A DNA stretch of 64,000 nucleotides from Tessaracoccus flavus (GTDB lineage: Bacteria; Actinomycetota; Actinomycetes; Propionibacteriales; Propionibacteriaceae): positions 3,100,001 through 3,164,000 of the forward strand of contig NZ_CP019605.1 of assembly GCF_001997295.1 (NCBI RefSeq), given 5' to 3'. Of this stretch, positions 1 to 31,388 are shown piece after piece. Both the position numbers and the translations under genes were made by a program. The notes below the pieces were generated by a model that was not told the DNA's origin, ran no database searches, and saw nothing but the letters and a program-made list of their open reading frames with translations. Position 1 is the stretch's first letter. Each line of letters starts with the position of its first letter.

Positions 1-1667
1 CAGAACAGCAGTTTCCGCAGCGACACCTGACCCGCCAGCGGCGATACCTGCGTGATCGAGTGACCGCGGAAGTACAGCTCGCGAAGCACCGGCTGCACCG
101 TCCAGCCAGCAAGGCTCGCCACCGGCGAATCGCCCACGCTCAGCATGCGCAGGGATGGCTGGACCTGCATCCCACCCAGCTGGGTCACTCGACTGTTGGA
201 GGCGTCGAGCGACTGGAGCTTCGGCAGCGAGGGTAGGCCCGAGAGATCCGCCACCGACGTGTAGTCGATCTGCAACGTGTCCAGCGACGGCTGTGGGGCG
301 AACCCGGCGGTGGTCGTCAGCGGGTTGAACGACGCGTCGATGCGCGCCAGCAGCGGCATCGTCGGCAGGCCGGCCCACGAGGTGAGCTCGTTGTGGGTGA
401 TATTCAGGTAGGTGAGCGACGGCAGCGGCGGCAGGCCTGCGAAGGATGTCAGCCCGTTGCCACTGGCCACAAGGTCCTTCAAGATCGGCAGCGCCGGCAG
501 CCCCGCGAACGACGGCGTCTGCAGCCCGGACGCCTGGAGCAGCGTGAGCGACCCGAGCGACGGCATCCCCTCGAACGAGGTGATCGGGTTGTTGTTGAGG
601 TGGAGCGACGCCAGCTTCGGCAGCGACGGCATCCCGCGCAGGGTGCTGACCTGGCCGTCGCCGACCGACAGGAAGTCCAATTGACCCAGCGACGGCAGGG
701 TCGCCAGCGACGTGAGCAGGGTCTCCCGCGCGTCGAGGTGGGTCAGCGACGGGGTGTGCCGCAGCGGGCTGAGGTCGCTGACCGGGGTGTCCCACATGGT
801 CAACCTCGTCAGGGCCGGCAGGTGGGCCACCTCGGCGAGCGATGCGACGTTCGACGACTGAAGCCCGAGGAAGCTCACCTTCGCCTGGGGGGGCAGACCC
901 TTCAGACTCCCAAGCTCGGTGAAGGAGAAGTCTAGGCCGGTGAGGTTGGGCAGGTACGGCATCCCTTCCAGCGATCGCACGCCGGAGTAGCTGCAGTTCA
1001 GACGCGTCAGGCGGGCGGCGGCCTCGGCGTCGAAGTCTGCGGCCGTGCGCACCCCGGAGCGAAGCACAATGCAGCTCTTGAGCCCGGCGTCCTTGACCTG
1101 GCTGAGGTCGCGCGGCCATTCGGGGCCGGGCTCGGCCGGCGGCGTGGGCGTCGGTGTGGGCGTGGGGGCGGCCGCGGGCGGCGAGAACCGCACCATGTTG
1201 TTGAGAATCTCCTTGGTGACCCACCGGTACGAGGTGCCGCCCGACGCTGCACGCACGGACTCGACGACGCTCGCCTTGAGGAAGGTTCGGCAGCCGTTCT
1301 GGCCGGTCAGGGGGGTGTCGCACTCGGTGCGCCATGTGCGCCCGGCGTTGGTCCACGTACCGGTGTTGGCCAGCGGGTTGTCGCCCCACCCGGCGCGGGG
1401 CATCGGGGCGTAGGTGAGGTTGTTGAAGGCCCAGTCGGTCTCGGGCACGAAGCGGCCGTTGATGTAGGACACCACCGTGGCCATGATCTCGGTGCGGCAC
1501 CGCTTCGTCTGCGAGTACGGCTCGCACTCGGTGCTCCACAGGCGCCCGTTGATCTCATGGACGCCCGGCTCGAGGTAGACGTCGAGGGCGGCGGCGGGGG
1601 CTGCTGGGGCCAGCGGTGCGGCGGCGACCGCCACGAGCAGGGCCAGCGCGAGGCGGAGCTTCTTCAC
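1..1667 (-). CDS. Secreted leucine-rich-repeat protein with N-terminal duplicated Cys module (partial, C-terminus beyond window)
   Basis: A GTG start at 1667 opens a frame with no stop before the window edge, so at least 555 residues are encoded. The start is followed by KKLRLALALLVAVAAAPLAP, a Sec signal peptide. Residues of about 30-165 form two similar halves. The first carries NGRLWSTECEPYSQTKRC and FNNLTY; the second carries GRTWRTECDT, a second Cys nine residues on, and LNNMVRF. A PTPTPTPTP linker follows, then about a dozen LRRs of 22-24 residues (for example LPSLPKLASLHLNNNPITSF). The same N-terminal module occurs in the genes at 8596 and 30327. LRRs of this kind usually mediate surface binding; no partner can be inferred. 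Any anchor lies outside the window. Confidence 0.9.
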   Translation of the reverse strand, partial: MKKLRLALALLVAVAAAPLAPAAPAAALDVYLEPGVHEINGRLWSTECEPYSQTKRCRTEIMATVVSYINGRFVPETDWAFNNLTYAPMPRAGWGDNPLANTGTWTNAGRTWRTECDTPLTGQNGCRTFLKASVVESVRAASGGTSYRWVTKEILNNMVRFSPPAAAPTPTPTPTPPAEPGPEWPRDLSQVKDAGLKSCIVLRSGVRTAADFDAEAAARLTRLNCSYSGVRSLEGMPYLPNLTGLDFSFTELGSLKGLPPQAKVSFLGLQSSNVASLAEVAHLPALTRLTMWDTPVSDLSPLRHTPSLTHLDARETLLTSLATLPSLGQLDFLSVGDGQVSTLRGMPSLPKLASLHLNNNPITSFEGMPSLGSLTLLQASGLQTPSFAGLPALPILKDLVASGNGLTSFAGLPPLPSLTYLNITHNELTSWAGLPTMPLLARIDASFNPLTTTAGFAPQPSLDTLQIDYTSVADLSGLPSLPKLQSLDASNSRVTQLGGMQVQPSLRMLSVGDSPVASLAGWTVQPVLRELYFRGHSITQVSPLAGQVSLRKLLF

Positions 1668-1714
1668 GACCGAAAGCTACACCCCGCGCGGGCGTTCCCC
1701 GCAGTCGGGGACGA

Positions 1715-2239
1715 TCAGGCCTCGGCGAGGACCTCGGCCATGGCCTCGGGGCCCCAGCTCAGGATCTGTACCTGCGGGGAGGCGCTCAGCAGGACGGCGT
1801 TGCCGTGGCCCACGAAGACCCAGGTGTACTCGTTCGGCTGCGCGAACACCTCGTAGCCCGACTCCTCGGCGCTCTCGGTGACGGCCGTGATGACGGCGGA
1901 GGGGTCCTCGTCGATGATCATGACGTAGGCGGGCTGGGCGTCGCTGACCAGAGACTCCTCGGGGAGCTTGATGCCCTTCGGCACCTCGATCTCCTGCGGG
2001 CCCACCATGATCGTCTCGGTCTGCACGTCGCCCTCGAAGGTGATGGTGCCGTCGTCCTGCGTCTGAACGCCGCCCGGTTCAGTCGCATCCCCCGCGCCCG
2101 GGTCGGTGGGCTGCGAGGTGCCCTCGGCGGGGGCGCTGACTGTGGCGGTCGCGTCGGGCTGGGCGTCGTCGGGGGAGCAGGCGCTCAGCCCGACCAGGGC
2201 GAGGGCGGCGACTGCTGCAGCTGCGAGGCGAAACTTCAT
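1715..2239 (-). CDS. Putative lipoprotein of unknown function
   Basis: The predicted product has 174 residues and begins MKFRLAAAAVAALALVGLSAC. This is a lipoprotein signal with lipobox LSAC and Cys21 as the lipidation site. An Asp/Ala/Thr/Pro-rich linker follows, then a roughly 100-residue domain with no recognised motif. The longer upstream frame was rejected because it runs into mshB and skips the signal peptide. The start lies 10 nt after the mshB stop, so the two are probably cotranscribed. The function is unknown; attachment to the outer face of the membrane is inferred from the lipobox. Confidence 0.8.
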   Translation of the reverse strand: MKFRLAAAAVAALALVGLSACSPDDAQPDATATVSAPAEGTSQPTDPGAGDATEPGGVQTQDDGTITFEGDVQTETIMVGPQEIEVPKGIKLPEESLVSDAQPAYVMIIDEDPSAVITAVTESAEESGYEVFAQPNEYTWVFVGHGNAVLLSASPQVQILSWGPEAMAEVLAEA

Positions 2240-2249
2240 GGACAACACT

Positions 2250-3158
2250 TTACGTGGCTTCTGAGAAGTCGATTCCCTCGAAGACGTCGGTGGCCGGGCC
2301 GTCGCCGGGCGGGAACGGCTGACCGCTGCCCAGCAGATACGCCTCCCCGGCGCCGGGGAGCTCCTGCATGATCGAGTAGAACTGCCAGAACGGGTGCTCA
2401 AGGTTGACCTGGCTGCGGTGCGCGCCCAGCGCGGCGCGGCACTTCTCGAGCCACGGCGATGTCTCGACCACCGCGACGATCTGCGACGGGTCCGGCCCGA
2501 ACCGCTCAGTGGCGGCGTCCTCGTCGACACCCGGCCAGAGCTCAAGCCCGCGCTCCCGCGCGATGGCGTAGGCCTCCGCCCACTTGCTCGTGTTGTGGGT
2601 GTTCCACAGGACGCGGGAGACCTGCCAGGGCGCGCCCAGATCCGGGCGGTGCGACGGCGACGACGCCAGCTGCACGGCGTACATGAGCGTGCGGTGGGCC
2701 TGGATGTGGTCGGGATGCCCGTAGTTGCCGAACGGGTCGTAGGTGATGGCCACCTGGGGCCGCCGGCTTCGGATGACTTCGACGAGGTGGTTGGCGGCCT
2801 CCAGCAGGTCGGCTCGCCAGAAGGCGTTGTCGGGCATCTCGTCGGGCACCGCCGCGCGTCCGGTGTCGTCGGAGGTCATCCCGGAGTCGTGGTAGCGGCC
2901 GGGGCCGCCGAGGAAGAGGTGGTCGGTCACCCCCACGACGTCGAGGGCTGACTCCAGCTCGACCTGACGGTGCGCGCCGAGCTCGGCCGGCGAGAAGTGT
3001 GACCACTCCGGCAGCATGATCTCGCCGAGTTCGCCCAGCGTGCACGTGACGAGCGTGACGTGGGCCCCCTGGTCGAGGTAGCGCGCCATGGTGGCGACAG
3101 ACTGGCTCGATTCGTCGTCGGGGTGGGCGTGGACGAGAAGAAGTCGTTGCTGGGTCAC
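2250..3158 (-). CDS. mshB: N-acetyl-1-D-myo-inositol-2-amino-2-deoxy-glucopyranoside deacetylase, MshB
   Basis: This 302-residue LmbE/PIG-L-family zinc deacetylase fits MshB, which removes acetate from GlcNAc-Ins in mycothiol biosynthesis. The metal motif AHPDDE is at residues 11-16 (His12, Asp15) and the third ligand is in HPDH at 148-151. The segment LGGPGRYHDSGM near residue 83 resembles MshB more than the mycothiol S-conjugate amidase Mca. Length is normal. Mycothiol is the actinobacterial low-molecular-weight thiol, so this gene also supports the taxonomic placement. It leads a two-gene unit with the lipoprotein. Confidence 0.9.
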   Translation of the reverse strand: MTQQRLLLVHAHPDDESSQSVATMARYLDQGAHVTLVTCTLGELGEIMLPEWSHFSPAELGAHRQVELESALDVVGVTDHLFLGGPGRYHDSGMTSDDTGRAAVPDEMPDNAFWRADLLEAANHLVEVIRSRRPQVAITYDPFGNYGHPDHIQAHRTLMYAVQLASSPSHRPDLGAPWQVSRVLWNTHNTSKWAEAYAIARERGLELWPGVDEDAATERFGPDPSQIVAVVETSPWLEKCRAALGAHRSQVNLEHPFWQFYSIMQELPGAGEAYLLGSGQPFPPGDGPATDVFEGIDFSEAT

Positions 3159-3244
3159 GTGGATCAGTCTAACGGTCGTCCCGGTTTCAACTAATTCGCG
3201 CGACGGCGGGGGCGCGAGGCACCGCGGGTTTGGCCTGTCAGGTT

Positions 3245-3303
3245 GCGAGCCCTTCGATACACGGCCGCTCGTTCCTCGCGGTCGTTACTCAGGGAGACGG
3301 TGG
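3245..3303. repeat. Family B palindromic repeat, half copy
   Basis: The sequence CCTTCGATACACGGCCGCTC followed by GTTCCTCGCGGTCG and TTACTCAGGGAGACGG matches copies at 33125, 39921 and 54976. It overlaps the 3' end of the ribbon-helix-helix gene. Confidence 0.75.
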
Positions 3304-3521
3304 TGACCTTTCCCGCTCGGGGAACGGGGCTGTGCTGGCGGGCGGCCGCGTTTCGGGAGCGGGGCCGCGTCCTTGGGGGCGCGCCCGGCCTTCTTGAGCG
3401 CGTCCCGCAGCACCACCTCGATCTGGGCGTTGACCGAGCGCAAATCGTCGGCAGCCCAGCGGGCGAGCGCGTCGTGCACCGCCGGGTCCAACCGGAGCAG
3501 CACCGCCTTACGCTCGCCCAT
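3285..3521 (-). CDS. Small ribbon-helix-helix (Arc/HicB-like) DNA-binding protein
   Basis: The product has 78 residues. The N-terminal half, beginning MGERKAVLLRLDPAVHDALA and continuing to RSVNAQIEVVLRDAL, has the strand-helix-helix pattern of Arc/CopG/HicB antitoxin-type repressors. The C-terminal tail is Pro/Lys/Arg-rich. It starts 32 nt after the stop of the SPFH gene, so it should be in that operon. No toxin-like partner is adjacent, so a regulatory role is more likely than a classical toxin-antitoxin pair. The palindrome at 4556-4582 is a plausible binding site (inference). Its 3' end overlaps a family B repeat, so the Pro-rich tail may be repeat-derived. Confidence 0.75.
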   Translation of the reverse strand: MGERKAVLLRLDPAVHDALARWAADDLRSVNAQIEVVLRDALKKAGRAPKDAAPLPKRGRPPAQPRSPSGKGHHRLPE

Positions 3522-3553
3522 CAGAGCCCCTCGGGCAGGTCACAGCGCATCGC

Positions 3554-4540
3554 TCACGTGTACAGCGACCCGGTGTTGACCACCGGGGTGACGCGCGACT
3601 CGCTGGTGAGGACCACGAGCAGGTTGGACACCATCGCGGCCTTGCGCTCCTCGTCGAGGGAGACGACGTTCTTCTCCTCGAGGCGCTCGAGCGCGTTCTC
3701 GACCATGGACACCGCGCCCTCGACGATCTTCTCGCGGGCCGCGATGATCGCGGACGCCTGCTGGCGCTGAAGCATCGCCTGGGCGATCTCCGGCGCGTAG
3801 GCGAGCGAGGAGATGCGGGTCTCCACCACCTCGAGGCCGGCGATCGCGATGCGCGCGGCCACCTCGTCGGCGAGTTCGTCGGCCACCAGCTCGGTGGAAC
3901 CGCGGAGGCTCTCCTCGCCGGGGCCTGCGTAGTCGTAGGGGTGGGTGGTGGCGACGTGGCGCAGTGCCGATTCCGACTGCACCGCGACGAACTCGTCGTA
4001 CTGCTCGACGGCGAACACCGACTTGGCGGTGTCGGCCACCTGCCACACGACGATCGCGGCGATGTTGACCGGGTTGCCGTCGGCGTCGTTGACCTTGAGC
4101 TCGTTGGTCTCGAAGTTGCGAACCTTCACCGAGACCTTCTTCTTCGTGGTGAAGGGGACGGTCATCAGCAGGCCGGCCCGGCGGATGGTGCCGATGTAGC
4201 GACCGAAGAACTGGATGACCTTGGTGTCGCCGGGGCTGATGATCGTCAGCGACGAGAACATCACCAACGCCAGGAGGAACAGAAGGATCGCCAGGAACAT
4301 CCGCAGCCCGCCGGCGTCCCCGACGTCGAGCGCCATCGCGGCGACGACGAACTGCCAGGAGGCGAGGCCGAGGACCACCAGGGCGACGAAGAACGCCAGG
4401 ATGCCGTCGATGTACCAGGCCTTCTTCTCCTCAATGTCGACGCGGGCACCCTCGCGCCCGACGGGACGAACGGAGGTGTTGCCGCCCACGGAGTCGCCGT
4501 CGAGATCGGTGCTGGGATCGGGTGTCTGGGGAAGAGTCAC
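3554..4540 (-). CDS. SPFH (stomatin/flotillin-like) membrane protein
   Basis: The product has 328 residues. After a polar N-terminus there are two hydrophobic segments (about 45-67 and 82-100). An SPFH/Band 7 domain follows, beginning near TIISPGDTKVIQFFGRYIGT, and then an Ala/Glu-rich helical region including YAPEIAQAMLQRQQASAI. SPFH proteins organise membrane microdomains and scaffold oligomeric rings. The start is GTG at 4540 with AAAGGACC upstream. The gene is divergent from the MFS transporter and followed by the RHH gene. No NfeD partner is present, which argues against the classical slipin operon. Confidence 0.85.
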   Translation of the reverse strand: MTLPQTPDPSTDLDGDSVGGNTSVRPVGREGARVDIEEKKAWYIDGILAFFVALVVLGLASWQFVVAAMALDVGDAGGLRMFLAILLFLLALVMFSSLTIISPGDTKVIQFFGRYIGTIRRAGLLMTVPFTTKKKVSVKVRNFETNELKVNDADGNPVNIAAIVVWQVADTAKSVFAVEQYDEFVAVQSESALRHVATTHPYDYAGPGEESLRGSTELVADELADEVAARIAIAGLEVVETRISSLAYAPEIAQAMLQRQQASAIIAAREKIVEGAVSMVENALERLEEKNVVSLDEERKAAMVSNLLVVLTSESRVTPVVNTGSLYT

Positions 4541-4555
4541 GATGGTCCTTTCAAT

Positions 4556-4582
4556 AAAGTGTAATCAATATGATATCACTTT
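4556..4582. promoter_or_regulatory. AT-rich 27-bp palindrome, candidate operator/promoter of the SPFH-RHH operon
   Basis: The arms are AAAGTG at 4556-4561 and CACTTT at 4577-4582, with inner matching ATCA and TGAT around a 3-bp centre. It lies 16 nt upstream of the SPFH GTG, in an AT-rich island that stands out from the surrounding GC-rich DNA. Position and symmetry suggest an operator, possibly for the RHH protein of the same operon; this is inference. Confidence 0.5.
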
Positions 4583-4628
4583 ACGGGCCGGGTGTGTGCA
4601 CGTCCGTGCCCTGTCCTAGGCTCTGGCT

Positions 4629-5942
4629 GTGACCACCAGCGAATCCGTCTACACCGCCCTTGTGCACCGTTCCTCGGCCGCCGACGAGTCGATCGCCGAG
4701 GAGGACCGCAGCACCGTGGCCCGCAACGGGCTACGGATCGTGGGCGCGAGCGCGCTGCAGGCGTCGGGGGATCAGGCGACGAAGGCGTCGACGGTGCTGC
4801 CCTGGCTGCTCCACGCCCTCGGGGCCCCTGCTGCCCTCATCGGGTTGCTCGTCCCGATCCGGGAGTCGGGCTCGATGCTCCCGCAGGCATTCCTCACCCC
4901 GATCGTGATGCGCTACCGGCAGCGCAAGTGGGTGGTCGTCGTCGGTCACGCGGTGCAGGCCGCCTCGGTCGCCGTGATGACGCTCATCGCCGCCGTCGGC
5001 TCCGGCCTCTGGGCGGGGGTCGGCATCGTCGGTGCGCTGGCGGTGTTCTCGCTGGGCCGCTGCCTGACCTCGATCGCCTCGAAGGATGTCCTGGGGCGGA
5101 CCTTGCCGAAGGGCGAGCGCGGCCAGGTCAACGGACTGGCCACCACCGCCTCGGGGATCGTGGCGATCACGCTCGGGCTGGGCCTCCGTCTGCTGGGCGG
5201 CCAACAACTGGAGGCGACGCAGCTCGCCTGGGTGCTCGGCGGAGCGGCCGCGCTGTGGGTGCTCGCGGCGGTGCTGTACGCGCAGGTCGAGGAGCCCGAC
5301 GACGACGCCTCGGCCGACGGCGAGAGCGACGGCTCGTGGGCCGCGCTGAGGCTCCTGCGCGACGACCGGGACTTCCGCCGCTTCGTCACCACCCGCAGCT
5401 TCCTCCTCGTCTCCGCCCTGGCGCCACCGTTCATCGTCTCCATGTCGGCGTCGTCGGGCGCCGACGCCGTCGTCGGACTGGGTGGCTTCGTCGTTGCGTC
5501 GGGGGTGGCGTCGATCATCGGCGGGCGGCTGTTCGGCCGGATGGCCGACCGCTCCAGCCGCCGTCTCATGGCCTTCGGTGCGGCGGCGTCGGCGGCGGTG
5601 GTGCTGCTGATCGTCGGCATCGTCGCGCTCCCGGGATTCTCGGGGGAGACGACCGTCGGCACCCTCGTGCTCGTCGTCGGGTACTTCCTGCTGACCCTCC
5701 TGCACACCGGTGTGCGGGTGGGGCGCAAGACCTACATCGTCGACATGGCGGAGGGGGATCAGCGGACGCTGTACGTCGCCGTCTCCAACACGGCGATGGG
5801 CATCATCCTGCTGGTGGTCGGGGCGATCAGCTCGGCGATCGCGCTGCTCGGCACGGTCTGGGCTCTGGTGTTCCTGGCCGCCCTGGGAGCCCTCGGTGCC
5901 GTCTGGGGCTGGCGGCTCCCCGAGGTGTCTCAGGGGTCCTGA
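4629..5942 (+). CDS. MFS transporter
   Basis: The product has 437 residues from GTG 4629. It is an integral membrane protein with about 11-12 hydrophobic segments and a charged central loop near residues 225-245 (VEEPDDDASADGESDGSW) separating two halves, the usual MFS layout. The substrate cannot be told. The N-terminal 30 residues are polar and acidic. It is divergent from the SPFH operon across an 88-bp gap, and its stop lies just before a block of family A repeats that may end transcription. Confidence 0.8.
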   Translation: MTTSESVYTALVHRSSAADESIAEEDRSTVARNGLRIVGASALQASGDQATKASTVLPWLLHALGAPAALIGLLVPIRESGSMLPQAFLTPIVMRYRQRKWVVVVGHAVQAASVAVMTLIAAVGSGLWAGVGIVGALAVFSLGRCLTSIASKDVLGRTLPKGERGQVNGLATTASGIVAITLGLGLRLLGGQQLEATQLAWVLGGAAALWVLAAVLYAQVEEPDDDASADGESDGSWAALRLLRDDRDFRRFVTTRSFLLVSALAPPFIVSMSASSGADAVVGLGGFVVASGVASIIGGRLFGRMADRSSRRLMAFGAAASAAVVLLIVGIVALPGFSGETTVGTLVLVVGYFLLTLLHTGVRVGRKTYIVDMAEGDQRTLYVAVSNTAMGIILLVVGAISSAIALLGTVWALVFLAALGALGAVWGWRLPEVSQGS

Positions 5943-5949
5943 CCACTCG

Positions 5950-6428
5950 GCCCTTGAGCTTGTCGCCTCGTGCTCCCTGAGCTTGTCGGCTCGTGCTCCC
6001 TGAGCTTGTCGAAGGGTTACGGCCCCGACCGTGGTCGCCGCCCTTGTGGTCGGGGGCGGCGGTAGGTAGCGAGGTCGTTACCCTTCGACGGACGTTCCTC
6101 GCGCAGGCGCTCGTCACTGCTCAGGGACCACCCTTCGACGGACGTTCCTTAGCTCTTGCGCTCGTCACTGCTCAGGGGTCAAGGTCCCTGAGCTTGTCGA
6201 AGGGTTACGCCCGTGAGTGTGGTCGCCGCCCTTGTGGTCGGGGGCGGCGGTAGGTGGCGAGGCCGTTACCCTTCGACGGACGGGCTGCTCGCTGCGCTCG
6301 CCGGCCCTGCTCAGGGACCACCCTTCGACGGACGTTCCTTAGCTCTTGCGCTCGTCACTGCTCAGGGATCGATTCGAGCGCTCGCCGGCCCTGCTCAGGG
6401 ATCGGGGAAACATCAGGGACATTGCTCA
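5950..6428. repeat. Family A palindromic repeat cluster
   Basis: This gene-free block holds about two core copies plus extra end units. The core reads, in order, CCCTGAGCTTGTCGAAGGG, TTACGGCC, a GC palindrome of the form CGCCGCCCTTGTGGTCGGGG, GTTACCCTTCGACGGACG and a TGCTCAGGG end. The outer ends and the inner GTCGAAGGGTTAC/GTTACCCTTCGAC are inverted repeats. Left end units are tandemly repeated at 5953-6015 with TCGTGCT spacers. Confidence 0.9.
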
Positions 6429-6504
6429 GGTGCCACTCCTGGCTGGGCGCTTAAGCTCGCCGAGAGCGCGGTGATTCTGCCGCCTGCTGGACAGGAGCGG
6501 ACCC

Positions 6505-7841: not shown

Positions 7842-7884
7842 ACCCGTGCCCGCAGATCGGCAGCGCGCTCGTAGACTGCCGCCC

Positions 7885-8505: not shown

Positions 8506-8595
8506 CCGGTCCCTTGGCCGACAGGCCGGTGTGACACGCGACTGCCGCAGCCTCCCTCACCTAGTCTGAAGGCTCGCGGACGAGAGGGATGGATC

Positions 8596-9597
8596 ATGAC
8601 ACTGAAGCGACGGCTGGCAGCGGCTCTGGCGGCGGCAGCGATGCTGGTCTGGGGCAGGGTGGCCACTGCTGCGGCCGAGGAAGTCGACATGTACTCGAAC
8701 CCTGGCGGTCACGCCAATAACGGTCGGCTCTGGCAGACCGACTGCGAGATGTACTCCTCGACGGTGGTGCGCTGCGAGACCGACATCTGGGCCTCGGTGG
8801 TGCGCTACGAGAACGGGCGCTTCCGCACCATCACAGGCTGGCACTTCAACAACCTCACGTACCTGCCGTCCTACCGCGGGGCCTGGGCCAACAATCCACT
8901 CGGTGTGCCGAGCGACTCGTTCACGAGCAACGGCCGCACCTGGCGCACCGAGTGCGACACCGCTGCCACGGGCAGCGGTGCCTGCCGGAGCTACATCTGG
9001 ACGAACTACGCCGCGTATGAGGGTGGCGCCTACCGCAACAAGACCGGCTGGGTGTTCAACAACCTCGTCCGCTTCGCCCACGACCAGATCCAGCCTGTCA
9101 AGACCGTGCCGCCGCACGTGCTCGACCAGGTGCGCCTCGACTTCTCCGGGCTCGGCCCGCTCAAGGCAGGGGTGTCGCACGCCGATCTGGCGCGCCTGGG
9201 CTACCTGACGGCGACCGGTCACGAGTGCGACGCCTACCGGGAGACGACGGAGCTGCGCTCCAGGGGGATCGCCGTGACGTTCGGACGCTCGGACGTGCTG
9301 GTGCAGTCCCGCAACATCTTCACCGTCGACGGCGCGCGGCCCGGGCTCAGCATCGGTTCTATCCGCGGCATCTACGGGTCCCGCTTCAAGGTGGAGGCCA
9401 AGGAGAACTACGGCCGCACGCAGTACTTCGGGTCGGTCCGTGAAGGCGACCGGGAGCTGATCTTCCGGGTCCGGGGCGTCCCCGATGGCTACGGCGGCTT
9501 CGAGTACGCCCCGACGCGGACGCTCGTCGACACCGACGTGGTCTATGAGATCAGCGCGGGTGAGTACACCGACGACGTCAGCTGGGGCGGCTGCTGA
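8596..9597 (+). CDS. Secreted protein with duplicated Cys module (same family as 1-1667 and 30327-31388), non-LRR C-terminus
   Basis: The product has 333 residues and an N-terminal signal peptide ending near ATAAAEE. Residues of about 30-165 repeat the shared module: NGRLWQTDCEMYSSTVVRC and FNNLTY, then NGRTWRTECDTAATGSGAC and FNNLVRF. The rest has no LRR. It starts LDFSGLGPLKAGVSHADLAR and has two Cys residues (one near residue 213 and the C-terminal residue), resembling the GxGPLKxGxS segment found in many uncharacterised actinobacterial secreted proteins. No TM anchor or sorting signal is visible, so the product is probably released or held non-covalently. Confidence 0.85.
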   Translation: MTLKRRLAAALAAAAMLVWGRVATAAAEEVDMYSNPGGHANNGRLWQTDCEMYSSTVVRCETDIWASVVRYENGRFRTITGWHFNNLTYLPSYRGAWANNPLGVPSDSFTSNGRTWRTECDTAATGSGACRSYIWTNYAAYEGGAYRNKTGWVFNNLVRFAHDQIQPVKTVPPHVLDQVRLDFSGLGPLKAGVSHADLARLGYLTATGHECDAYRETTELRSRGIAVTFGRSDVLVQSRNIFTVDGARPGLSIGSIRGIYGSRFKVEAKENYGRTQYFGSVREGDRELIFRVRGVPDGYGGFEYAPTRTLVDTDVVYEISAGEYTDDVSWGGC

Positions 9598-22013: not shown

Positions 22014-22038
22014 GGGGCCCCACGCTGAGCGGGGCCCC
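22014..22038. terminator. Bidirectional hairpin between convergent genes
   Basis: Two copies of GGGGCCCC (22014-22021 and 22031-22038) can pair across a 9-nt spacer between the convergent membrane-protein gene and metS. Confidence 0.7.
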
Positions 22039-22056
22039 ATCAGAGAGCGCAGCGCC

Positions 22057-23738: not shown

Positions 23739-23856
23739 GTTGCCTCCCGACGGTGGGAATGGATCGATACGGGCTCACCGTAGTGCTCCGCCGTCGGGTC
23801 GGAGCGCCCGCCCACGAAAATGGGCGTGGCACTGGCCCGGGTCGTCGGCATTGATA

Positions 23857-24084
23857 GTCGCCAACGCTCCGACCGGTACGCCAACGGTCCACCCCCACGC
23901 CAACGGCCCGACCGAAACGCGAAAGGTGCGAGGAGAACGCCAACGGGGCGGGCCGTTCGCTGGCGAGACTCAGCGATGCCAGCGAGATTTCGCAGGCATC
24001 GATGGGTATCGACGGCGTTTTGGCGGCGCCGTTGGCGTTTGGCAGGGCCGTTGGCGTTCGGACGGCGCGGTTGGCGTCGGCAAG
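23857..24084. repeat. Family C inverted repeat array
   Basis: Four or more left-hand CGCCAACG-type units (with GACCGNAACGC spacers) face right-hand TTGGCGTTTGG and TTGGCGTTCGG units. The centre reads GAGACTCAGCGATGCC...GGCATCGATGGGTATCG. This is the longest of three copies in the window. The 23739-24170 gap has no supported gene. Confidence 0.8.
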
Positions 24085-24170
24085 GCCTTACCGATGCGCG
24101 ACATCCGACGGCAACCTCCTACGACGACGCGCGGGCAGTCCCACGGGCGGCGAGGGAGCTCGCGATCGAA

Positions 24171-24941
24171 TCAGCGGACGAAGACCGGGGTGTCCTTGGT
24201 GGAGCGCTCCTCGTCGTAGGAGTAGCCGTCGGCCTCGAAGTCCAGCACCTTGGCGGCACTACGCACCCGCTCACGGACCAGCCAGGCCGCCATGAGGCCG
24301 CGTGCACGCTTGGCGTAGAAGCTGACGACGCGCGGCTCGCCGGACTTATCGCGGTCCTCGAACCGGGGGCTGATGACGCGCGCCCCGAGGCGGTGCTCGT
24401 CGACCACCTTGAAGTACTCCTGGGAGGCGAGGTTGATGAGGACCTCCGGGCCGGGAGAGGCCTCGAGGTCGCGGCGAAGCAGGTCCGTCACCTGGGTGCC
24501 CCACCATTCGTAGAGCGTCTGTCCGCGGCTGGACGCAAGACGTGTGCCCATCTCGAGGCGGTGGGGCTGGATCAGGTCCATCGGCCGCAGCAATCCGTAG
24601 AGGCCGGACAGGATCCGGACGGTCTTCTGCGCCTCGGTGAAGTCCCGGGCGTCGAAGTCCTTGGCTGCGAGACCCTGGTAGACGTCGCCGTCGAAGGCGA
24701 GCACCGCGGGTCGGGAGTTGTCCGGGGCGTGGTCAGTTGAGAACGCGCTGTAGCGGGAGGCGTTGAGCTCCGCCAGGTCGTCGGAGATGTGCATCAGCGC
24801 CTTGATTTCGCCCGGGGACTTCGTCCGCATGATCTCGATCAGCCCTGCCGACTGCCCCACAAGGCGGGGCTCCGAGTGCTTCCTGGTAGGCAGGGGAGTC
24901 TCGAAATCGAGTGATTTGGCGGGCGAAAGGACGGAAAGCAT
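24171..24941 (-). CDS. yaaA: Peroxide stress protein YaaA (DUF328/UPF0246)
   Basis: The product has 256 residues. It begins MLSVLSPAKSLDFETPLPTR, the conserved start of the YaaA family, and has FDGDVYQGL, LSGLYGLLRPMDLIQPHRLE and NLASQEYFKVV at the expected places. YaaA binds DNA and limits intracellular iron during peroxide stress in Escherichia coli. Length is standard. It stands alone between repeat blocks. Confidence 0.9.
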   Translation of the reverse strand: MLSVLSPAKSLDFETPLPTRKHSEPRLVGQSAGLIEIMRTKSPGEIKALMHISDDLAELNASRYSAFSTDHAPDNSRPAVLAFDGDVYQGLAAKDFDARDFTEAQKTVRILSGLYGLLRPMDLIQPHRLEMGTRLASSRGQTLYEWWGTQVTDLLRRDLEASPGPEVLINLASQEYFKVVDEHRLGARVISPRFEDRDKSGEPRVVSFYAKRARGLMAAWLVRERVRSAAKVLDFEADGYSYDEERSTKDTPVFVR

Positions 24942-24977
24942 GGGGTGAGTCTAGTTGCCCCTGCCTGCTGTTCCTCG

Positions 24978-25108
24978 GCCCCTGAGCTCGTCGAAGGGTC
25001 AGGGACGTGCCAGTGCTCGACGTGGCTGTGGCCGGGGGCGGCGTTTGGAAACGGGCCGTTACCCTTCGACAAGCTCAGGGAGCAAGAGTCGACAAGCTCA
25101 GGGGTCAG
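24978..25108. repeat. Family A repeat, diverged copy
   Basis: CCCTGAGCTCGTCGAAGGG on the left and GTTACCCTTCGACAAGCTCA on the right flank a degenerate GC centre (GTGGCCGGGGGCGGCG). Two right end units occur. It lies between convergent-end yaaA upstream DNA and the glycosylase 3' end and touches the latter's stop codon. Confidence 0.8.
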
Positions 25109-25527
25109 GGGCGCTCCCACGCCTCGATCGGGCCATCGACGACGGTGAAGAGCGGGTGCGGACGAGGTGCAGTCAGTCGCGGCTCCCAGTCCGGGGCGCG
25201 CAGACGCACCTTCGAGCGCAGGTGGTCGAGCTCGTAGGCGAGTTGGCCGGCGGTGACGGTGAGCCGGAGTTCGTCGTCGGGCACTGTGTCCAGGCGCGTG
25301 ACGTCGAAGCGGTAGCCACGCGCGGCGGCCTCGCTGCGTAGACCCGCGAGGTACGTCACGACGGCGCGGACTGGATCTGCTGTGGTCCGGAATCGCTGGA
25401 GCTGTGGGTGGTTGAGGTAGCCCTTCGTCCTGCCCGCCAGCACAGCTTGGGCGAGAAGCCCCTCGCGCCACCCGGCCACGAGCGCCGCGCGGTCGAGCAG
25501 GGTCGGGTGCAGGCTCCACAATCTCAT
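25105..25527 (-). CDS. Pyrimidine dimer DNA glycosylase/endonuclease V-like protein
   Basis: The product has 140 residues from ATG 25527 (MRLWSLHPTLLDRAALVAGW). It matches the pyrimidine-dimer DNA glycosylase family related to T4 DenV, with WREGLLAQAVLAGRTKGYLN and HPQLQRF near the N-terminus. DenV-type enzymes use an N-terminal amine and a Glu; WREG is a candidate. The longer upstream frame overlaps the divergent epimerase promoter and is rejected. UV-damage repair is the likely role. Confidence 0.8.
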   Translation of the reverse strand: MRLWSLHPTLLDRAALVAGWREGLLAQAVLAGRTKGYLNHPQLQRFRTTADPVRAVVTYLAGLRSEAAARGYRFDVTRLDTVPDDELRLTVTAGQLAYELDHLRSKVRLRAPDWEPRLTAPRPHPLFTVVDGPIEAWERP

Positions 25528-25601
25528 CCCCCCAAGCATGCCCGACTGGCCGCGTGCCAAGATGAGTCCGGACCAGTGACGCCCGTGAGCGGAGGACGAC
25601 G

Positions 25602-26837
25602 ATGGAGCTTTTCGGTCAAGACGACAATCCCTTCGAGGACTGCACGCACCTGCGCTGGCTGGAATCGCACCGCGACGACCTGCTCGACTTCTACCAACCG
25701 GAGGTGTGTCTCGACAGCGGCGGCTACGCCTACCTCGACGCCGAGGGGCACGCACTCCCTGAGCAGGGGGCGCAACTCTGGCTGGGCGCTCGCATGCTGC
25801 ACTGTTTCTCCATCGCCCACGCGCTGGGACGTCCCGGCGCGGCCGACGTCGTCCGTCATGGCCTGTCCTTCTACTCCGACGGCGAGGGCCGCGACCACGT
25901 CCACGGCGGCTGGTTCGCCACCGTCGGCGGCGCCGCCCCGTCGGACCGGAAGGAGCTCTACGGGCAGGCGCACCTGTTGCTGGGCGCCTCCTCGGCCGTG
26001 ATCGCCGGGTTCCCCGAGGCCCGGAAGCTCGTCGACGAGGCGTTGCGGGTCATCGATGAGCACTACTGGCGCGAAGCGGAGGGAAGGTGCGTCGAGGCCT
26101 TCGACCGCACGTTCACCGAGCTCGACCCCTACCGCGGTCAAAACGCCAACATGCACCTGACCGAGGCTCTGCTGACGGCCTACGAGGCGACTGGCGACGA
26201 GATGCTCCTGAACCGGGCGGCGCGCATCGCACGCCACATCGCGGGGCGTGCCGCCGACCCGACCCGCGGTGCCTGGAGGCTCCCCGAGCATTTCGACGGT
26301 CAGTGGCGCGATCTCCTCGACTACAACCGCGACGAGCCGCGCCACCCCTTCCGCCCCTATGGCTCGCAGCCGGGGCACTGGCTCGAATGGACGAAGCTGC
26401 TGCTACAACTGCGCGGCAAGGGGATCGACGAACCGTGGCTGGTGCCCGCGGCGCGGAACCTGTTCGTCGGCGCCCTGCGCGACGCGTGGGCACCCGAGGG
26501 CGGTTTCGCCTACACCGTCGACTGGGACGGCAACGTGGTCGTGGCGGAGAAGTTCTTCTGGGAGGTCGCCGAGGGCATCGGAGCCGCGCGGTACCTCTAC
26601 GACCTGGACCCGATGCCGACGTATGCCGACGCCTACCGCGGGTTCTGGCGCTACGTCGCCCTGCACATCGTCGACCACGAGCGGGGATCGTGGTTCCCCG
26701 AACTCGACGACGAGAATCGCCCCGTCCAGCACACCTGGGCCGGCAAGCCGGACCTCTACCACGCCTTCCAGGCGACGCTCTACGCCGCCGTCCCGGCCGA
26801 CGAGGGCCTCGCCGCCTGGGCGGCGCGACCCCGCTGA
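25602..26837 (+). CDS. AGE-family sugar epimerase/isomerase (YihS-like)
   Basis: The product has 411 residues. It has the alpha/alpha-barrel family pattern of N-acylglucosamine 2-epimerase and YihS: DSGGYAYLD near residue 38, GGWFATV, KELYGQAHLLLGAS, QNANMHLTEALL, HPFRPYGSQPGHWLEWTKLL and KFFWEVAEGI. The His residues in QAHLL, NMHL and GHWLEW are candidate catalytic or binding residues. Mannose/fructose or related aldose-ketose isomerisation is likely; the exact substrate is unknown. It is divergent from the glycosylase. Confidence 0.85.
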   Translation: MELFGQDDNPFEDCTHLRWLESHRDDLLDFYQPEVCLDSGGYAYLDAEGHALPEQGAQLWLGARMLHCFSIAHALGRPGAADVVRHGLSFYSDGEGRDHVHGGWFATVGGAAPSDRKELYGQAHLLLGASSAVIAGFPEARKLVDEALRVIDEHYWREAEGRCVEAFDRTFTELDPYRGQNANMHLTEALLTAYEATGDEMLLNRAARIARHIAGRAADPTRGAWRLPEHFDGQWRDLLDYNRDEPRHPFRPYGSQPGHWLEWTKLLLQLRGKGIDEPWLVPAARNLFVGALRDAWAPEGGFAYTVDWDGNVVVAEKFFWEVAEGIGAARYLYDLDPMPTYADAYRGFWRYVALHIVDHERGSWFPELDDENRPVQHTWAGKPDLYHAFQATLYAAVPADEGLAAWAARPR

Positions 26838-26841
26838 GCCG

Positions 26842-28551
26842 CTAGGCGTCCGGTGAGTTGGAGGTGATCCCGGGCTTGCCGTCGTGGATGATCTTGCCCG
26901 GGTTCAGGTTGTTGCCCGGGTCGACACCTTCGAACAGCTTGCGCTGGATGAATACGCCCGCCGGAGAGATGTCCTGCTCCATCCAGGGGCTGTGCTCCTC
27001 GCCGACGCCGTGGTGGTGCGACACCGTCGCGTGGTTGTCCATGAACGACTGCTGGATCTCGCGCTTGGCCAGATCGTAGGTGCGCATTGCGTTGGCGGAG
27101 TTGTCGTTGATCGCGAACGTGAAGTACTGGCAGGCCCCCGAATGGTACGAGTGGCTGAGGTGGCAGAAGACGACGCCTTGGACACCCAGTTCGTCCATCA
27201 GCTTGTTGAAGCGCTCCACGGTGTTGGTGTGGATCTGCTCGGCGTAGGCCCACGGCGTCGTCGTCTCCGACACATCGCAGAGCATGCCGCGGTCGAGCAT
27301 GAAGTCGCGGATGTAGGGGGTGTCGTACTTCTTCTGGTCGTACAGCGCGCCCGGGCCCTTGCCGACGCCCATGCCGCCGTTGTCGCGGACGATCTTGCCG
27401 ACGATGCCCTTCTCGTAGCGCACGTGGCTGGCGGATCCCTCAAACCCGACGAAGCTCATCGCGATCTGCTCGAGATCCCAGCCCTTCTGCACCATCAGCT
27501 TCTGGATGCCCTTGCTGACGAGCGAGCTGACCTTCGACTTCGACTTCTTGCCGTTGGCCATGATGTATTGCGTCTCGATCGCGTCGGAGACGCGCGCCAT
27601 CATCACGTGCGCATCGGACTCGACGATCTGCTGGCAGGCCCGCAGCCCGTCCTCGTAGGTCGGGTAGAAGTACGCCTGCAGCTCGCGAACCTCTGGGATG
27701 CGGTGCACGTTGACCCAGGCCGACGTGATGATGCCCAACCGGCCCTCCGAACCCAGCACCATCTCGCGGACGCTCGGGCCGGACGACGTCGACGGCAGGG
27801 GGCGCAGCTCCAGCACCTGCCCCGGCATCACCATGGTGAGCCCGCGGCAGATGTCGGCGATGTCGCCGTACTTGTCCGACTGCATGCCCGACGAGCGCGT
27901 GGCGATCCAGCCGCCGAGCGTCGACCAGACGAACGAGTCGGGGTGATGCCCCATGGTCCAGCCCTTGGCGCGGAGCTGGTCCTCCATGTCGGGGCCGAAC
28001 ACGCCCGCCTGGATGTGGGCGAGCCCTGAGTTCTCGTCGATCTCCAGCACCTTGTTCATCCGGCCGAGGTTGACCGAGACCACCTGGCGCGTCTCTCCCG
28101 GCTCGGCCTCGAGCGCGGCGACGATGTTCGAGCCGCCACCGAACGGGATGACGACGGCGTCAGCCTCGACGCAGGCGTCGACGACCTGCTCGACCTCGCG
28201 CTGGCTGCCCGGGTAGAGCACGACGTCGGGGATGCGCTCGAGCTGCCCGGCGCGCACCCGCATGAGGTCACGCAGGCCCTTGCCGAAGCCGTGGACCACG
28301 CGGGTCTCGTCGTCGGTCTGCACGTACGTGTCGCCGAGGATGCCGGCCAGGGTGCCGCGAAGCTCGTCGGTGAGCTGGGAGGCGGGCACGTTGAGCGACG
28401 AGAAGGGAGGGATGGTCTCCGCGGGGGCCGTGATGTCGACGCCGACCATCTTCTTCACGAACGCGGGGAACTTCGGCTTGTCCTCGTAGCGGTAGCCCTT
28501 GCCTTCTTCGCCCCAGCCCCACCACTTCTGCTGCTTGACGCCTTCGATCAT
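26842..28551 (-). CDS. FAD-binding alkyldihydroxyacetonephosphate synthase-like protein
   Basis: The product has 569 residues with GGAGGAACG before ATG 28551. The PCMH-type FAD domain contains IPFGGGSNIVAALEA and HHPDSFVWSTLGGWIATRSS. A C-terminal FAD-oxidase domain follows, with VSHHHGVGEEHSPWMEQDIS near the end. Trp-rich WWGWGEEGKGY at the N-terminus and the HHHG motif are typical of alkyl-DHAP synthase (AGPS), which swaps an acyl for an alkyl chain on acyl-DHAP to make the ether bond. A D-lactate or glycolate oxidase-like role is the main alternative. Its start overlaps the stop of the acyltransferase by 4 bp. Confidence 0.82.
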   Translation of the reverse strand: MIEGVKQQKWWGWGEEGKGYRYEDKPKFPAFVKKMVGVDITAPAETIPPFSSLNVPASQLTDELRGTLAGILGDTYVQTDDETRVVHGFGKGLRDLMRVRAGQLERIPDVVLYPGSQREVEQVVDACVEADAVVIPFGGGSNIVAALEAEPGETRQVVSVNLGRMNKVLEIDENSGLAHIQAGVFGPDMEDQLRAKGWTMGHHPDSFVWSTLGGWIATRSSGMQSDKYGDIADICRGLTMVMPGQVLELRPLPSTSSGPSVREMVLGSEGRLGIITSAWVNVHRIPEVRELQAYFYPTYEDGLRACQQIVESDAHVMMARVSDAIETQYIMANGKKSKSKVSSLVSKGIQKLMVQKGWDLEQIAMSFVGFEGSASHVRYEKGIVGKIVRDNGGMGVGKGPGALYDQKKYDTPYIRDFMLDRGMLCDVSETTTPWAYAEQIHTNTVERFNKLMDELGVQGVVFCHLSHSYHSGACQYFTFAINDNSANAMRTYDLAKREIQQSFMDNHATVSHHHGVGEEHSPWMEQDISPAGVFIQRKLFEGVDPGNNLNPGKIIHDGKPGITSNSPDA

Positions 28552-29351
28552 CGTTCCTCCTGCTTGTCCGCGCGTTGCTTGGCGTCATCGACCAAGGCGG
28601 CTATCTCGGATTTCTGTGCCCGTTCGAGGGCTTGGGTGTGGGCGTACTCGGCCAGGGTCTTCATCCCATAGGCGCGAGCCGTGGTGTCGTGTAGTTCGAT
28701 GACCTGGCGGCGCATGCGCTCGTTGAACTCGTGCGCGATCTCGCCGGGGAAGGGGGTCATCGGACGCCCGAACACGACGTGTACCTCGGGCCGACCCTTG
28801 GGCAGATGCTTCTGTTTCGACGGCCACGCCTCGAAGGCTCCGACGAGCGCGACGGGCAGCGCCGGAACGCCCCGCGAAATGCACAGCGACGCCACGCCCG
28901 GCTTGTACGGCCCCATCGCCCCGTCCCTGGAGCGCGTGCCCTCGGGGAACAGGAGCAGCGGGACGCCGTCGTCGAGCAGCTTGGCCGACAGCCCGCGCTG
29001 CCCGCGGCCGCCCTTGCCGCGGTCGATCGGGAAGCCGTTCATGAACAGTGACATCGGCGCGGACTTCCACCACTTGTCATAGAAGAAGTCGCCCGCCGCG
29101 CCGGTCGCGACGAAGCGACCGAGCCGGCTGGGCAACGAGCAGAGGATGAGGGGGGCGTCGAGGTGCGACGCGTGGTTGCTGAAGACGATGAACGGCGCCT
29201 CGAGGCTGTCGAGGTTGGCGGCGGAGTGCACGTGGATCTTCAGGAGCTTCCACAGGGCCGGTTTCAGCAGGAGGAGTTGGGCCGTGCGCCGAGTGGCCGC
29301 CTGCAGGTCCGACGTGTAGCGCGAACCTCCCGGCTCGACGTCTTTGGCCAC
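28548..29351 (-). CDS. PlsC-type glycerolipid acyltransferase
   Basis: The product has 267 residues from GTG 29351. The acyltransferase motifs are FSNHASHLDAPLIL (catalytic HxxxxD), FPEGTRSRDGAMGP (phosphate-binding block) and PVALVGAFEAWP. It lies 1 nt after the SDR stop and overlaps the AGPS-like start. In general such enzymes transfer acyl chains to glycerol-3-phosphate derivatives; here DHAP or lyso-ether lipid may be the acceptor (inference from operon). The C-terminus is charged and helical. Confidence 0.87.
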   Translation of the reverse strand: MAKDVEPGGSRYTSDLQAATRRTAQLLLLKPALWKLLKIHVHSAANLDSLEAPFIVFSNHASHLDAPLILCSLPSRLGRFVATGAAGDFFYDKWWKSAPMSLFMNGFPIDRGKGGRGQRGLSAKLLDDGVPLLLFPEGTRSRDGAMGPYKPGVASLCISRGVPALPVALVGAFEAWPSKQKHLPKGRPEVHVVFGRPMTPFPGEIAHEFNERMRRQVIELHDTTARAYGMKTLAEYAHTQALERAQKSEIAALVDDAKQRADKQEER

Positions 29352-29352
29352 G

Positions 29353-30129
29353 TCAGTGCCTCTTCCTCGACGCGGTGAGGACCCGGGTGAACCAGCGCGT
29401 CAGTGTCCTCGGCCCGTGGTCGCCGACCTTGAGGGCGAGCTTCCACTTCCAGTCCGGCACCGACTCGATCTTGCCCTTCTCGGCGTCGTCGAGACACTCT
29501 CGCACGAGCTTGTCGGGGTCGATCCAGATGAAGTCGGGAATCTTGGAGGCGTTGATGCCCGCACGGTCGTGGAACTCGGTGCGCACCCAGCCGGGGAGCA
29601 GCGCGGTCGCGGTGACGCCGGTGCCGGTGAGTTCGAGCGCCAGGCCGTTGGAGTACGAACGCGCCCAGGCCTTGATCGCCGAGTAGTTGCCGGTGTAGAT
29701 CGCCGACGACGACGACGCGACGGTCACGATGCGGCCGTGGCCGCGCTCCTTCATGGCCCGGGCCGCGGCACCGCCGAGGATGAGCACGGCTAGGCACATG
29801 ACGTCGAGCGCGCGGGCGTGGATGTCGATGTCGTCGGGGTCGAGCACGGTCGAGTGGAGGCCGAAGCCCGCGTTGTTGACGAGCCAGTCGACGGGGCGGC
29901 TCTGGTCCTCGAGCCGCGCGGCGACGCGTGCGACGTCGTCGCGTACAGCGAGGTCTGCTGGGAGCACCTCCACCTCGACCCCGTGCAACTGCCGCAGTTC
30001 TTCCGCGACGGCGTTCAGCCGGGCCTCGTCACGGGCGACGAGGATCAGGTCAGTGCCCCTGCTGGCGAATTCGCGCGCGAACGCGTGTCCGATGCCGGAG
30101 GTACCGCCCGTGATGAGTGCTGATGCCAT
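29353..30129 (-). CDS. Short-chain dehydrogenase/reductase
   Basis: The product has 258 residues. It has the classical SDR signature: TGGTSGIG at residues 7-14 for the cofactor, NNAG near 91, and a catalytic region with SSSAIYTGNYSAIKAW (Ser, Tyr, and Lys four residues after the Tyr). An Arg-containing motif after the second strand (VARDEAR) suggests NADPH. It is the first gene of a three-gene coupled operon with PlsC-like and AGPS-like genes, so acyl/alkyl-DHAP reduction is a plausible but unproven role. Confidence 0.87.
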   Translation of the reverse strand: MASALITGGTSGIGHAFAREFASRGTDLILVARDEARLNAVAEELRQLHGVEVEVLPADLAVRDDVARVAARLEDQSRPVDWLVNNAGFGLHSTVLDPDDIDIHARALDVMCLAVLILGGAAARAMKERGHGRIVTVASSSSAIYTGNYSAIKAWARSYSNGLALELTGTGVTATALLPGWVRTEFHDRAGINASKIPDFIWIDPDKLVRECLDDAEKGKIESVPDWKWKLALKVGDHGPRTLTRWFTRVLTASRKRH

Positions 30130-30326
30130 GCCCTATAAGGTACGCCACTTGCGGAACGCTCCGCGAAGTCGACGGCGATGCGGGCACGCTGGCTGGCGCG
30201 AGTCCACAACCTCGAGGCGCCGTCGTTTGTGGGACCTCCACAACGCGTTGCCCCTTGCCGGCCCTGCCTATCCGTGGGAGATGTGCATCCCCTACGATTC
30301 AGCCACCAACTCTTGAAGGGACCCTC

Positions 30327-31388
30327 GTGAAGGTCTTCCGGGCAATGGCTGCCCTCATCCTCGGCGCCGCGCTTGCGCCGCTCGTCCCCGCCCTCGACGC
30401 CCGCGCGGAGGTCGACGTCTACAGCACCGCCGGGCACCACGAAGTCAACGGCCGGCAGTGGTACACCGAGTGCGAGCCGTACTCGCAGACCACGCGCTGC
30501 CGCACCAGCATCTTCGCCTCCTACGTCGTCTACCGCGACGGACAGTACGTGACGCAGCGGGACTGGCTGTTCAATAACCTCACCTACCTGCCGTCCCCGC
30601 GGACCATGTGGACCACGAACCCCCTGGGCAACAATGGCGAGTGGACCGCCAAGGACGGCCGCAAGTGGAGGACCGAGTGCGATACGGCGGCGACCGGCCG
30701 CAACGGCTGCCGCTCCTACACCGAGGCGAAGGTGGTGGAGCAGTACAACCTGTCCGCGAACGTCGTCGGGTACCGCACTGTGACGAAGTGGCTGTTCAAC
30801 AACATCGTGCGCTTCGGCCCGATCACCTACCCCGCGCTGCAGGGCGGTGACGCGCTGATCGGCGATCCCGGGCTGTTCGAGTGTCTGGCCGATGCCGCCG
30901 GGGTCGCGCACAACCACACTGCGATCCCGCAGAGCAGATTGCAAAACGTGGTCGAGCTGGACTGCTACAACCGCGGCATCGAGTCGCTCGACGACCTCGG
31001 GTTCGCGCAGCTGCCCAACCTCGAGGTGGCCGACTTCAGCTCCAACTGGCTGACCACCCTCGACGGGCTGCCCTACCTGCCCAGCCTGCTGTTGCTCGAT
31101 GCGTCGGACAACGAGCTCACGGAAGTCGGCGATCTCTCCTCCCTCAGCTCGCTCGTGGTGCTGGCTGTCGCGGACAACCACCTCACGTCCGTCGAGGGCC
31201 TGAGCTCGGAGCGGCTCCAGTTGGCGGCGCTCGACGTCCGCGGCAACGACATCACGACGGTGGCGCCGCTGGCCGACGCCTGGTCGCTCGAGGAGCTGTA
31301 CGTCGAGGACAACCCGATCACCGACCTGGACGCGCTCGCCGCGCTGATCGACGCCGGCCTCTGGCTGGACGTGCTCCACGGCGAGTAG
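30327..31388 (+). CDS. Secreted LRR protein with duplicated Cys module (family of 1-1667 and 8596-9597)
   Basis: The product has 353 residues from GTG 30327, which has GAAGGGACC upstream. The signal peptide ends near LDARAEVD. The shared module follows: NGRQWYTECEPYSQTTRC, FNNLTY, GRKWRTECDTAATGRNGC and FNNIVRF. After a linker, a capping segment with two Cys residues precedes about six LRRs (for example LPNLEVADFSSNWLTTLDGL) ending DNPITDLDALAALI. No TM segment or sorting signal is visible at the C-terminus. Frame extension to 30117 was rejected because it lacks a signal peptide. Confidence 0.88.
   Translation: MKVFRAMAALILGAALAPLVPALDARAEVDVYSTAGHHEVNGRQWYTECEPYSQTTRCRTSIFASYVVYRDGQYVTQRDWLFNNLTYLPSPRTMWTTNPLGNNGEWTAKDGRKWRTECDTAATGRNGCRSYTEAKVVEQYNLSANVVGYRTVTKWLFNNIVRFGPITYPALQGGDALIGDPGLFECLADAAGVAHNHTAIPQSRLQNVVELDCYNRGIESLDDLGFAQLPNLEVADFSSNWLTTLDGLPYLPSLLLLDASDNELTEVGDLSSLSSLVVLAVADNHLTSVEGLSSERLQLAALDVRGNDITTVAPLADAWSLEELYVEDNPITDLDALAALIDAGLWLDVLHGE

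Follow-up and report, generated by a model that had tools for sequence, protein, structure and literature searches.

A duplicated four-cysteine module of secreted Tessaracoccus proteins as a probable lineage-specific surface-retention domain

Genes carrying the module in the window

We analysed a stretch of 64,000 nucleotides of Tessaracoccus flavus (the window, positions 3,100,001-3,164,000 of the single-contig 3.22-Mb genome), in which three genes for secreted-type proteins were found to share a module of two related halves. The module recurs at one end of dozens of proteins of the same genome. On sequence comparison, it is probably (about 70%) a lineage-specific anchor domain that retains secreted proteins on the cell surface.

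The first carrier, on the minus strand at 3-1667, contained a signal peptide, the module, a linker rich in proline and threonine, and leucine-rich repeats (LRRs). It starts at 1667 and leaves the window; in the full genome (locus L042) it is 582 codons long. Its module (1176-1583, minus strand) is N-terminal, with two halves and four cysteines. Its LRR region (approximately 3-1037, minus strand) matched Pfam LRR_4 at E 3.7e-30, and LRR-type models began at residue 211. The second carrier, on the plus strand at 8596-9597, contained a signal peptide, an N-terminal module (8680-9084) and a C-terminal domain without a Pfam match. A domain 46% identical to this C-terminal domain (window 9085-9594) was found behind another module, in a carrier at genome positions 2334383-2335582. 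The third carrier, on the plus strand at 30327-31388, contained a signal peptide, an N-terminal module (30408-30821) and leucine-rich repeats. Pfam LRR_4 was present in two of the three carriers, where the initial annotation had described LRRs, and the second carrier was without any Pfam family. The carriers with repeats did not reach the cut-offs of the internalin models of NCBIfam (the first carrier scored 85.9 bits where 1050 is required and 76.6 where 1600 is, and the third carrier 39.7 bits), and the likeness to internalin, as judged from sequence, is a similarity of the repeats only.

The open reading frames and the alignment bore out the three genes and their shared module, with a mutual identity of 51-58% and four cysteines in common. 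Some details of the initial annotation had to be changed. The Cys-pair module was present, whereas the motif FNNxVRF given for the second half reads LNNMVRF in the first gene. The cysteines of the first half were found to be 9, 10, and 9 positions apart in the three proteins (8-9 had been given) and those of the second half 10 positions apart (nine had been given).

Conservation and predicted structure of the module

The module was found to contain about 135 residues, as a tandem of two related halves of about 60 residues each. The half-to-half scores within the three window proteins were z = 7.7, 8.9, and 18.7 (500 shuffles each). A profile of the first half, from 34 modules, matched the second half with a probability of 99.1% (E 1.5e-18), whereas 20 column-shuffled controls reached at most 5.9%. 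The relatedness of the halves was thus confirmed. An alignment of 130 modules (34 from the own genome and 96 from named relatives, the latter taken from best hits and not a random sample) contained 42 columns with one residue in at least 90% of the sequences, and all four cysteines were among them. Exactly four cysteines were present in all 96 modules of the relatives. Tryptophan, tyrosine, arginine, and asparagine residues were also conserved. Since the cysteine pairs are 9-10 positions apart within each half, each half probably contains one disulfide. The net charge of the module was positive (+4.4 per 100 residues, against -5.5 in the preceding 400 residues), and the module was the more positive part in 68 of 71 comparisons.

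An AlphaFold2 model of the module of the third carrier, made on the alignment of the 34 own-genome modules, had a mean predicted local distance difference test score (pLDDT) of 94.4 and a predicted TM score of 0.81. The predicted structure was mostly beta, with about four strands in each half and a short helix. A Foldseek search of the PDB with this model gave 623 matches at E up to 10 and none at 0.001, by which a new fold is not proven. The best match was a single-strand DNA-binding protein (E 0.057, TM 0.21, root-mean-square deviation 14.3), which was not considered meaningful. No known family was found for the module in Pfam or NCBIfam, and no relative among PDB sequences at E up to 10, in agreement with the earlier statement that no named family is recognisable. 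The Pfam scan of the 34 modules was run at a limit of E 10, where the HMMER filters drop most matches above 0.1. DUF4295 in five modules (best E 0.0016), thaumatin in four (best E 0.025), and seven further families in one module each were taken as chance.

Copies, position, and carrier proteins

In the own genome, 42 matches to the three window modules were found, and 43 with a larger alignment. The expanded family expected by the initial annotation was therefore stated too modestly. The copies comprised 34 near-full-length, open modules and eight partial or interrupted ones (G000 618972-620687, 1268196-1268606, 141737-142879, and five others); the latter may be signs of family turnover. The module was neither matched to a described domain nor confined to close copies of one protein.

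The N-terminal layout of the window genes was found to be that of a minority. The module formed the extreme C-terminus in 24 of the 34 own carriers (0-8 residues after it) and was N-terminal in 10. Among the named relatives it was C-terminal in 70 of 96 carriers (0-11 residues after it), N-terminal in 25, as called by eye from a signal-peptide-like sequence ahead of the module, and cut by a contig end in one. Apart from that cut copy, none of the 130 near-full copies lay between the ends of a protein, and there were never two in one protein. In a tree of the modules (SH-like approximate likelihood-ratio test, SH-aLRT, only; support mostly weak), N- and C-terminal modules were mixed but clustered, with five changes against a shuffled mean of 8.8. 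Genes with N-terminal modules were found in tandem, two at L070:5851-9281 and three at L071:3858-9244, and local expansion is possible there.

By a home-made rule, 29 of the 34 own carriers contained a signal-peptide-like start, against 53 of 442 other open reading frames. Matches to Pfam at E 0.001, to many unrelated families, were found in 28 of the 33 own carriers scanned (a 269-residue carrier in L028 was left out), that of L036:3301-4953 lying only below the curated cut-off. Those without a match were in L034, L059, L061, L012, and the second window carrier. The C-terminal module was present in glycoside hydrolases (GH43, arabinofuranosidase, GH16, GH3, GH10, pullulanase, and GHL10) and in 5'-nucleotidase, LTD/endonuclease, PIG-L, DMFA2_C, CAP, M23, PKD/Ig-repeat, and LRR proteins. 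The N-terminal module was present in YkuD L,D-transpeptidase, NlpC/P60, DPBB lytic transglycosylase, M15 peptidase, D-glucuronyl C5-epimerase, and LRR proteins. The earlier proposal of an attachment module that displays variable binding domains keeps its first part, as a likely role of a module with no named relative, whereas 'binding domains' is too narrow for a family in which many carriers are enzymes.

The many glycoside hydrolases, some of which also contained carbohydrate-binding modules, and a median content, over 96 modules, of 7 tryptophan and 19 aromatic residues would suit a carbohydrate-binding module that sticks enzymes to external polymers such as plant, fungal, or host glycans. 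The module is also present on 5'-nucleotidase, nuclease, CAP, LRR, and peptidoglycan-active proteins, and homologues contained peptidoglycan-binding repeats or a terminal LPxTG in its place (see below); we consider this explanation quite improbable. A docking module, similar to dockerin, by which enzymes are plugged into a surface scaffold or receptor protein and not into a wall glycan, would account for a single, usually C-terminal, internally duplicated module in dozens of proteins per genome, for the glycoside hydrolases, and for a patchy presence among relatives. However, peptidoglycan hydrolases and an L,D-transpeptidase also bear the module, its model is mostly beta whereas dockerins are helical, and no dockerin was among the Pfam matches of the 34 modules. 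No scaffold candidate was seen, and no genome-wide search for one was made. Docking on a protein is, in our estimate, unlikely.

Distribution among genomes

Within the genus, the module was found in 15 of 39 genomes (14 of the 34 good ones), and 24 genomes contained none. The positive genomes contained 43, 64, 48, 52, 38, 11, 59, 66, 42, 17, 37, 1, 48, 16, and 29 copies. The named relatives with the module (77 loci, from the best 80 of 350 stretches) were Tessaracoccus species, uncultured Arachnia, one Propionibacterium bin, and one Propionibacteriaceae bin. In the family, with up to 21 candidates scored per genome, 15 of 198 genomes and one of 29 genera were positive, and none of the 28 other genera sampled contained the module. 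In a sample of the phylum, with up to 10 candidates scored, the own genome was the only positive one of 396, and none of the 395 others contained the module. Plasmids and phages were searched with one module of the C-terminal type, without a match, and the module alignment gave no relative among viral contigs (30 pattern stretches).

In a single-marker tree (pyruvate phosphate dikinase from 30 of the 39 genus genomes, SH-aLRT only), presence and absence required six changes, of which at least four were forced; a single gene is a weak stand-in for the species tree. The negative genome G002 was placed among the positives G003, G005, and G007 (48, 52, and 38 copies; the G005 row was 43% filled), and G029, with one copy, was sister to G027, with none.

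Replacement of the module in related species

When the catalytic part of the 5'-nucleotidase from the own genome was used as the query in the genus, 33 of 39 genomes matched, of which 30 loci were read (G004, G005, and G034 were left out). The enzyme ended in the module in 10 of 12 module-positive genomes. None of the 18 negatives contained the module at this enzyme, and 16 of them ended in LPxTG (14) or PPxTG (2) followed by 1-4 residues; the ending of one of these, G006, with a broken frame, was taken by eye from a neighbouring locus. In a tree of the catalytic part (29 sequences; G006 left out, PPxTG scored as 'other'), the module label changed six times, and at least five changes were forced by well-supported branches. 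The LTD/nuclease was examined in all 28 matching genomes. Its module was found in 9 of 13 positives, counting G005 (shifted frame), G033 (contig piece), and G007 (broken end), and in none of 15 negatives. In the negatives, 13 of 15 ended in LPx[TS][GS] at most eight residues from the stop (eight in strict LPxTG); G013 and G038 did not.

In the YkuD enzymes (30 loci), the module of positive genomes preceded the catalytic domain, and homologues contained PG_binding_1 repeats at this position (Pfam-confirmed for three). The homologues without the module also carry a motif that we take to be a lipobox. A role in secretion or folding alone, as a chaperone-like domain or export signal without retention, would agree with carriers that mostly bear signal peptides and with a module at either end. 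On the other side, the module-less homologues start with a lipoprotein-type signal (by eye, and for L,D-transpeptidases only), and an export signal that functions at either end would be unusual. This explanation appears very improbable.

In module DNA, the nuclease and the 5'-nucleotidase shared 95% identity, and the GH16 and PIG-L proteins 94%; these are pairs of unrelated enzymes. The 300-base flanks of these near-identical modules were 58-64% identical, against a background mean of 53 and a maximum of 59; the value of 64% belonged to the downstream flank of the nuclease and 5'-nucleotidase pair, where eight similar residues follow the module in both. From modules so alike within flanks so different, we infer that copies were moved or converted between unrelated genes.

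The LPxTG ending itself was found to be tail-less. No membrane helix with a charged tail was seen downstream of the nucleotidase LPxTG (15 loci, three frames, by eye). The DNA pattern LPxTGx-stop had 89 hits, spread over 26 of the 39 genomes of the genus, and its reversal had 3; 21 of the 89 hits were in the 15 positive genomes and 68 in the 24 negatives. At ten such loci, eight hits ended frames of 105-441 codons, most with a tail rich in Pro/Thr/Ser, and two frames were short, at least one of them likely by chance. Secreted-type proteins with this ending were seen, for example, in L144, L147-L149, L152, L172, L173, L175, L177, and L180. In the family, 68 of 198 genomes contained a terminal LPxTGx; outside the genus there were 42 of 159, mostly with single hits and near the reversed-pattern control, and the hits were concentrated in G067 (9), G165 (4), and G062 (3). 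The presence of a sortase did not discriminate, as it was common to all 39 genus genomes. Matches to PF00746 over the cut-off were found in 23 of 39 genus genomes; only these were used, because at E 1 13 of 14 control genomes matched (two over the cut-off). The own genome contained one sortase and no LPxTGx-stop hit, and none of its matches to PF00746 passed the cut-off.

Neighbouring genes and the possible ligand

A module-bearing C5-epimerase was found in a polysaccharide cluster of two species (L137:886-12224 and L078:2997-11240). The epimerase was identified by a Pfam match in L078, and the L137 protein was 53% identical to it. The neighbours in both clusters were a Gfo/Idh oxidoreductase, DegT aminotransferase, hexapeptide transferase, glycosyltransferase, and ATP-binding cassette (ABC) ATPase, with a UDP-sugar dehydrogenase and an acyltransferase beside the epimerase in L137. 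These are the enzymes that the synthesis of an acidic amino-uronic sugar would require, together with an ABC exporter. The epimerase carrier of the own genome was without such a cluster around it (2,798,000-2,837,000 examined). The L137/L078 cluster was found neither there nor at 2.625-2.68 Mb, except for relatives of the acyltransferase (50%) and of the ABC ATPase (27%). A DegT-type relative (40%) was present in locus L013, adjoining another carrier. The positive charge of the module and the module-bearing epimerases of the two clusters suggest an acidic ligand, the cluster being a weak lead. Across the 77 named loci, the largest recurring neighbour clusters (11 and 7 loci) resembled, by eye, shadow frames or common genes.

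In the window, a reading frame at 31911-33101, which we take to be of the IS110 transposase type, adjoins the third carrier. Similar spurious translations (LSLSKG, FDKLR, PSTSSG, and PELVEG) were found between genes at about 24955-25519, 31483-31965, 36785-37276, 47174-47626, and 60223-60984. This recurrence suggests a dispersed short DNA repeat.

Proposed role of the module

Surface retention is proposed because the carriers are of secreted type, the module is terminal, other surface devices stand in its place, near-identical modules are found on unrelated genes, and presence among relatives is patchy. Carriers, with their signal-peptide-like sequences, would leave the cell through the signal peptide, and the module at one end would then retain them on the envelope, with no covalent processing involved. 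The probable target is a component of the wall made only by the module-bearing species, plausibly an acidic wall polysaccharide. The module would multiply by copying onto other genes inside one genome, and in related species a terminal LPxTG-type peptide or peptidoglycan-binding repeats would take its place.

Several observations weigh against this role. Two of the 12 positive genomes (G010 and G025) contained a nucleotidase ending in LPSTGN or LPSTGR, and another tail was found in two of the 18 negatives (G009 and G014). A nuclease match without the module was present in four of the 13 positives (G010, G022, G028, and G034), two of these matches being distant (38-39% identical). The L,D-transpeptidase comparison is partly one of paralogues, as positives often contained both kinds, and is an analogy of architecture and not a strict orthologous swap. 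The exchange with LPxTG is informative only if the tail-less peptide is a surface signal, which is putative. Presence is not strictly all-or-none, with one copy in G029 and eleven in G010. Beside the modules at the 77 loci, neither a recurrent neighbour nor a cognate factor came to light.

A wider proposal is an undescribed two-part display system, in which a new beta fold docks dozens of unrelated secreted proteins on one cognate surface component (a special acidic wall polymer or a receptor), which relatives would acquire or lose as one unit; species without the component would use the tail-less terminal LPxTG on the same enzymes as a second undescribed device. We offer this tentatively, as somewhat less probable than its opposite. 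With surface retention as its role, a so far unmodelled domain of dozens of proteins per genome gets a testable function, and many 'hypothetical' secreted proteins of Tessaracoccus and Arachnia would become annotatable. By exchanging module and tail-less LPxTG on the same enzymes, nature has already set up an experiment on the choice of surface anchor in actinobacteria. Since close relatives differ in whether they have the module, phylogenetic profiling could find its ligand or partner, for which PMC1569441 on PEP-CTERM/EpsH gives a precedent.

Comparison with known systems

The surface anchor is a known kind of device. As far as searched, neither the domain nor its exchange with the tail-less LPxTG ending was described in the libraries or open-licence papers, and either may be published elsewhere.

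Dockerin consists of two Ca-binding repeats of about 22 residues and is helical. The module is similar to the dockerin/cohesin system in that one duplicated module is present per secreted enzyme, mostly at the C-terminus. It differs in its four cysteines and mostly beta model; no cohesin-like partner was seen, and the genomes were not searched for cohesins.

In PEP-CTERM/EpsH, as given in PMC1569441, a multi-copy C-terminal region is patchy across genomes, and the signal is a short motif, a membrane helix, and a basic cluster. Like this system and LPXTG/sortase, the module is multi-copy, C-terminal, and present in some genomes only (PMC1569441). Unlike both, it is a folded domain of about 135 residues, it occurs at either end (N-terminal in 10 of 34), no helix or basic tail follows it, and no processing enzyme was identified. 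The C-terminal modules end 0-11 residues from the stop without the LPXTG, helix, basic tail, or PF00746 match of sortase substrates.

The module resembles peptidoglycan-binding modules (LysM, SH3b, PG_binding_1, CWB2, and SLH) in holding the place of PG_binding_1 before YkuD. Table 1 of PMC5817068 gives LysM, SH3 types, SPOR, CW-7, PGB1, PGB2, CWB1, CWB2, SLH, and ChW as non-covalent wall-binding domains, and none of these was among the Pfam matches of the 34 modules. The WxL domain (PF13731) of Firmicutes works most alike: it forms the last 120-190 residues or so of extracellular proteins, is reported to bind peptidoglycan non-covalently, and contains two Trp-x-Leu motifs including YXXX(L/I/V)TWXLXXXP (PMC5817068). 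No Pfam WxL match was found in the 34 modules, and the motif was absent from the alignment by eye. Both domains are found at the C-terminal end of extracellular proteins, whereas the module is also N-terminal, contains two halves and four cysteines, and was seen only in one actinobacterial genus.

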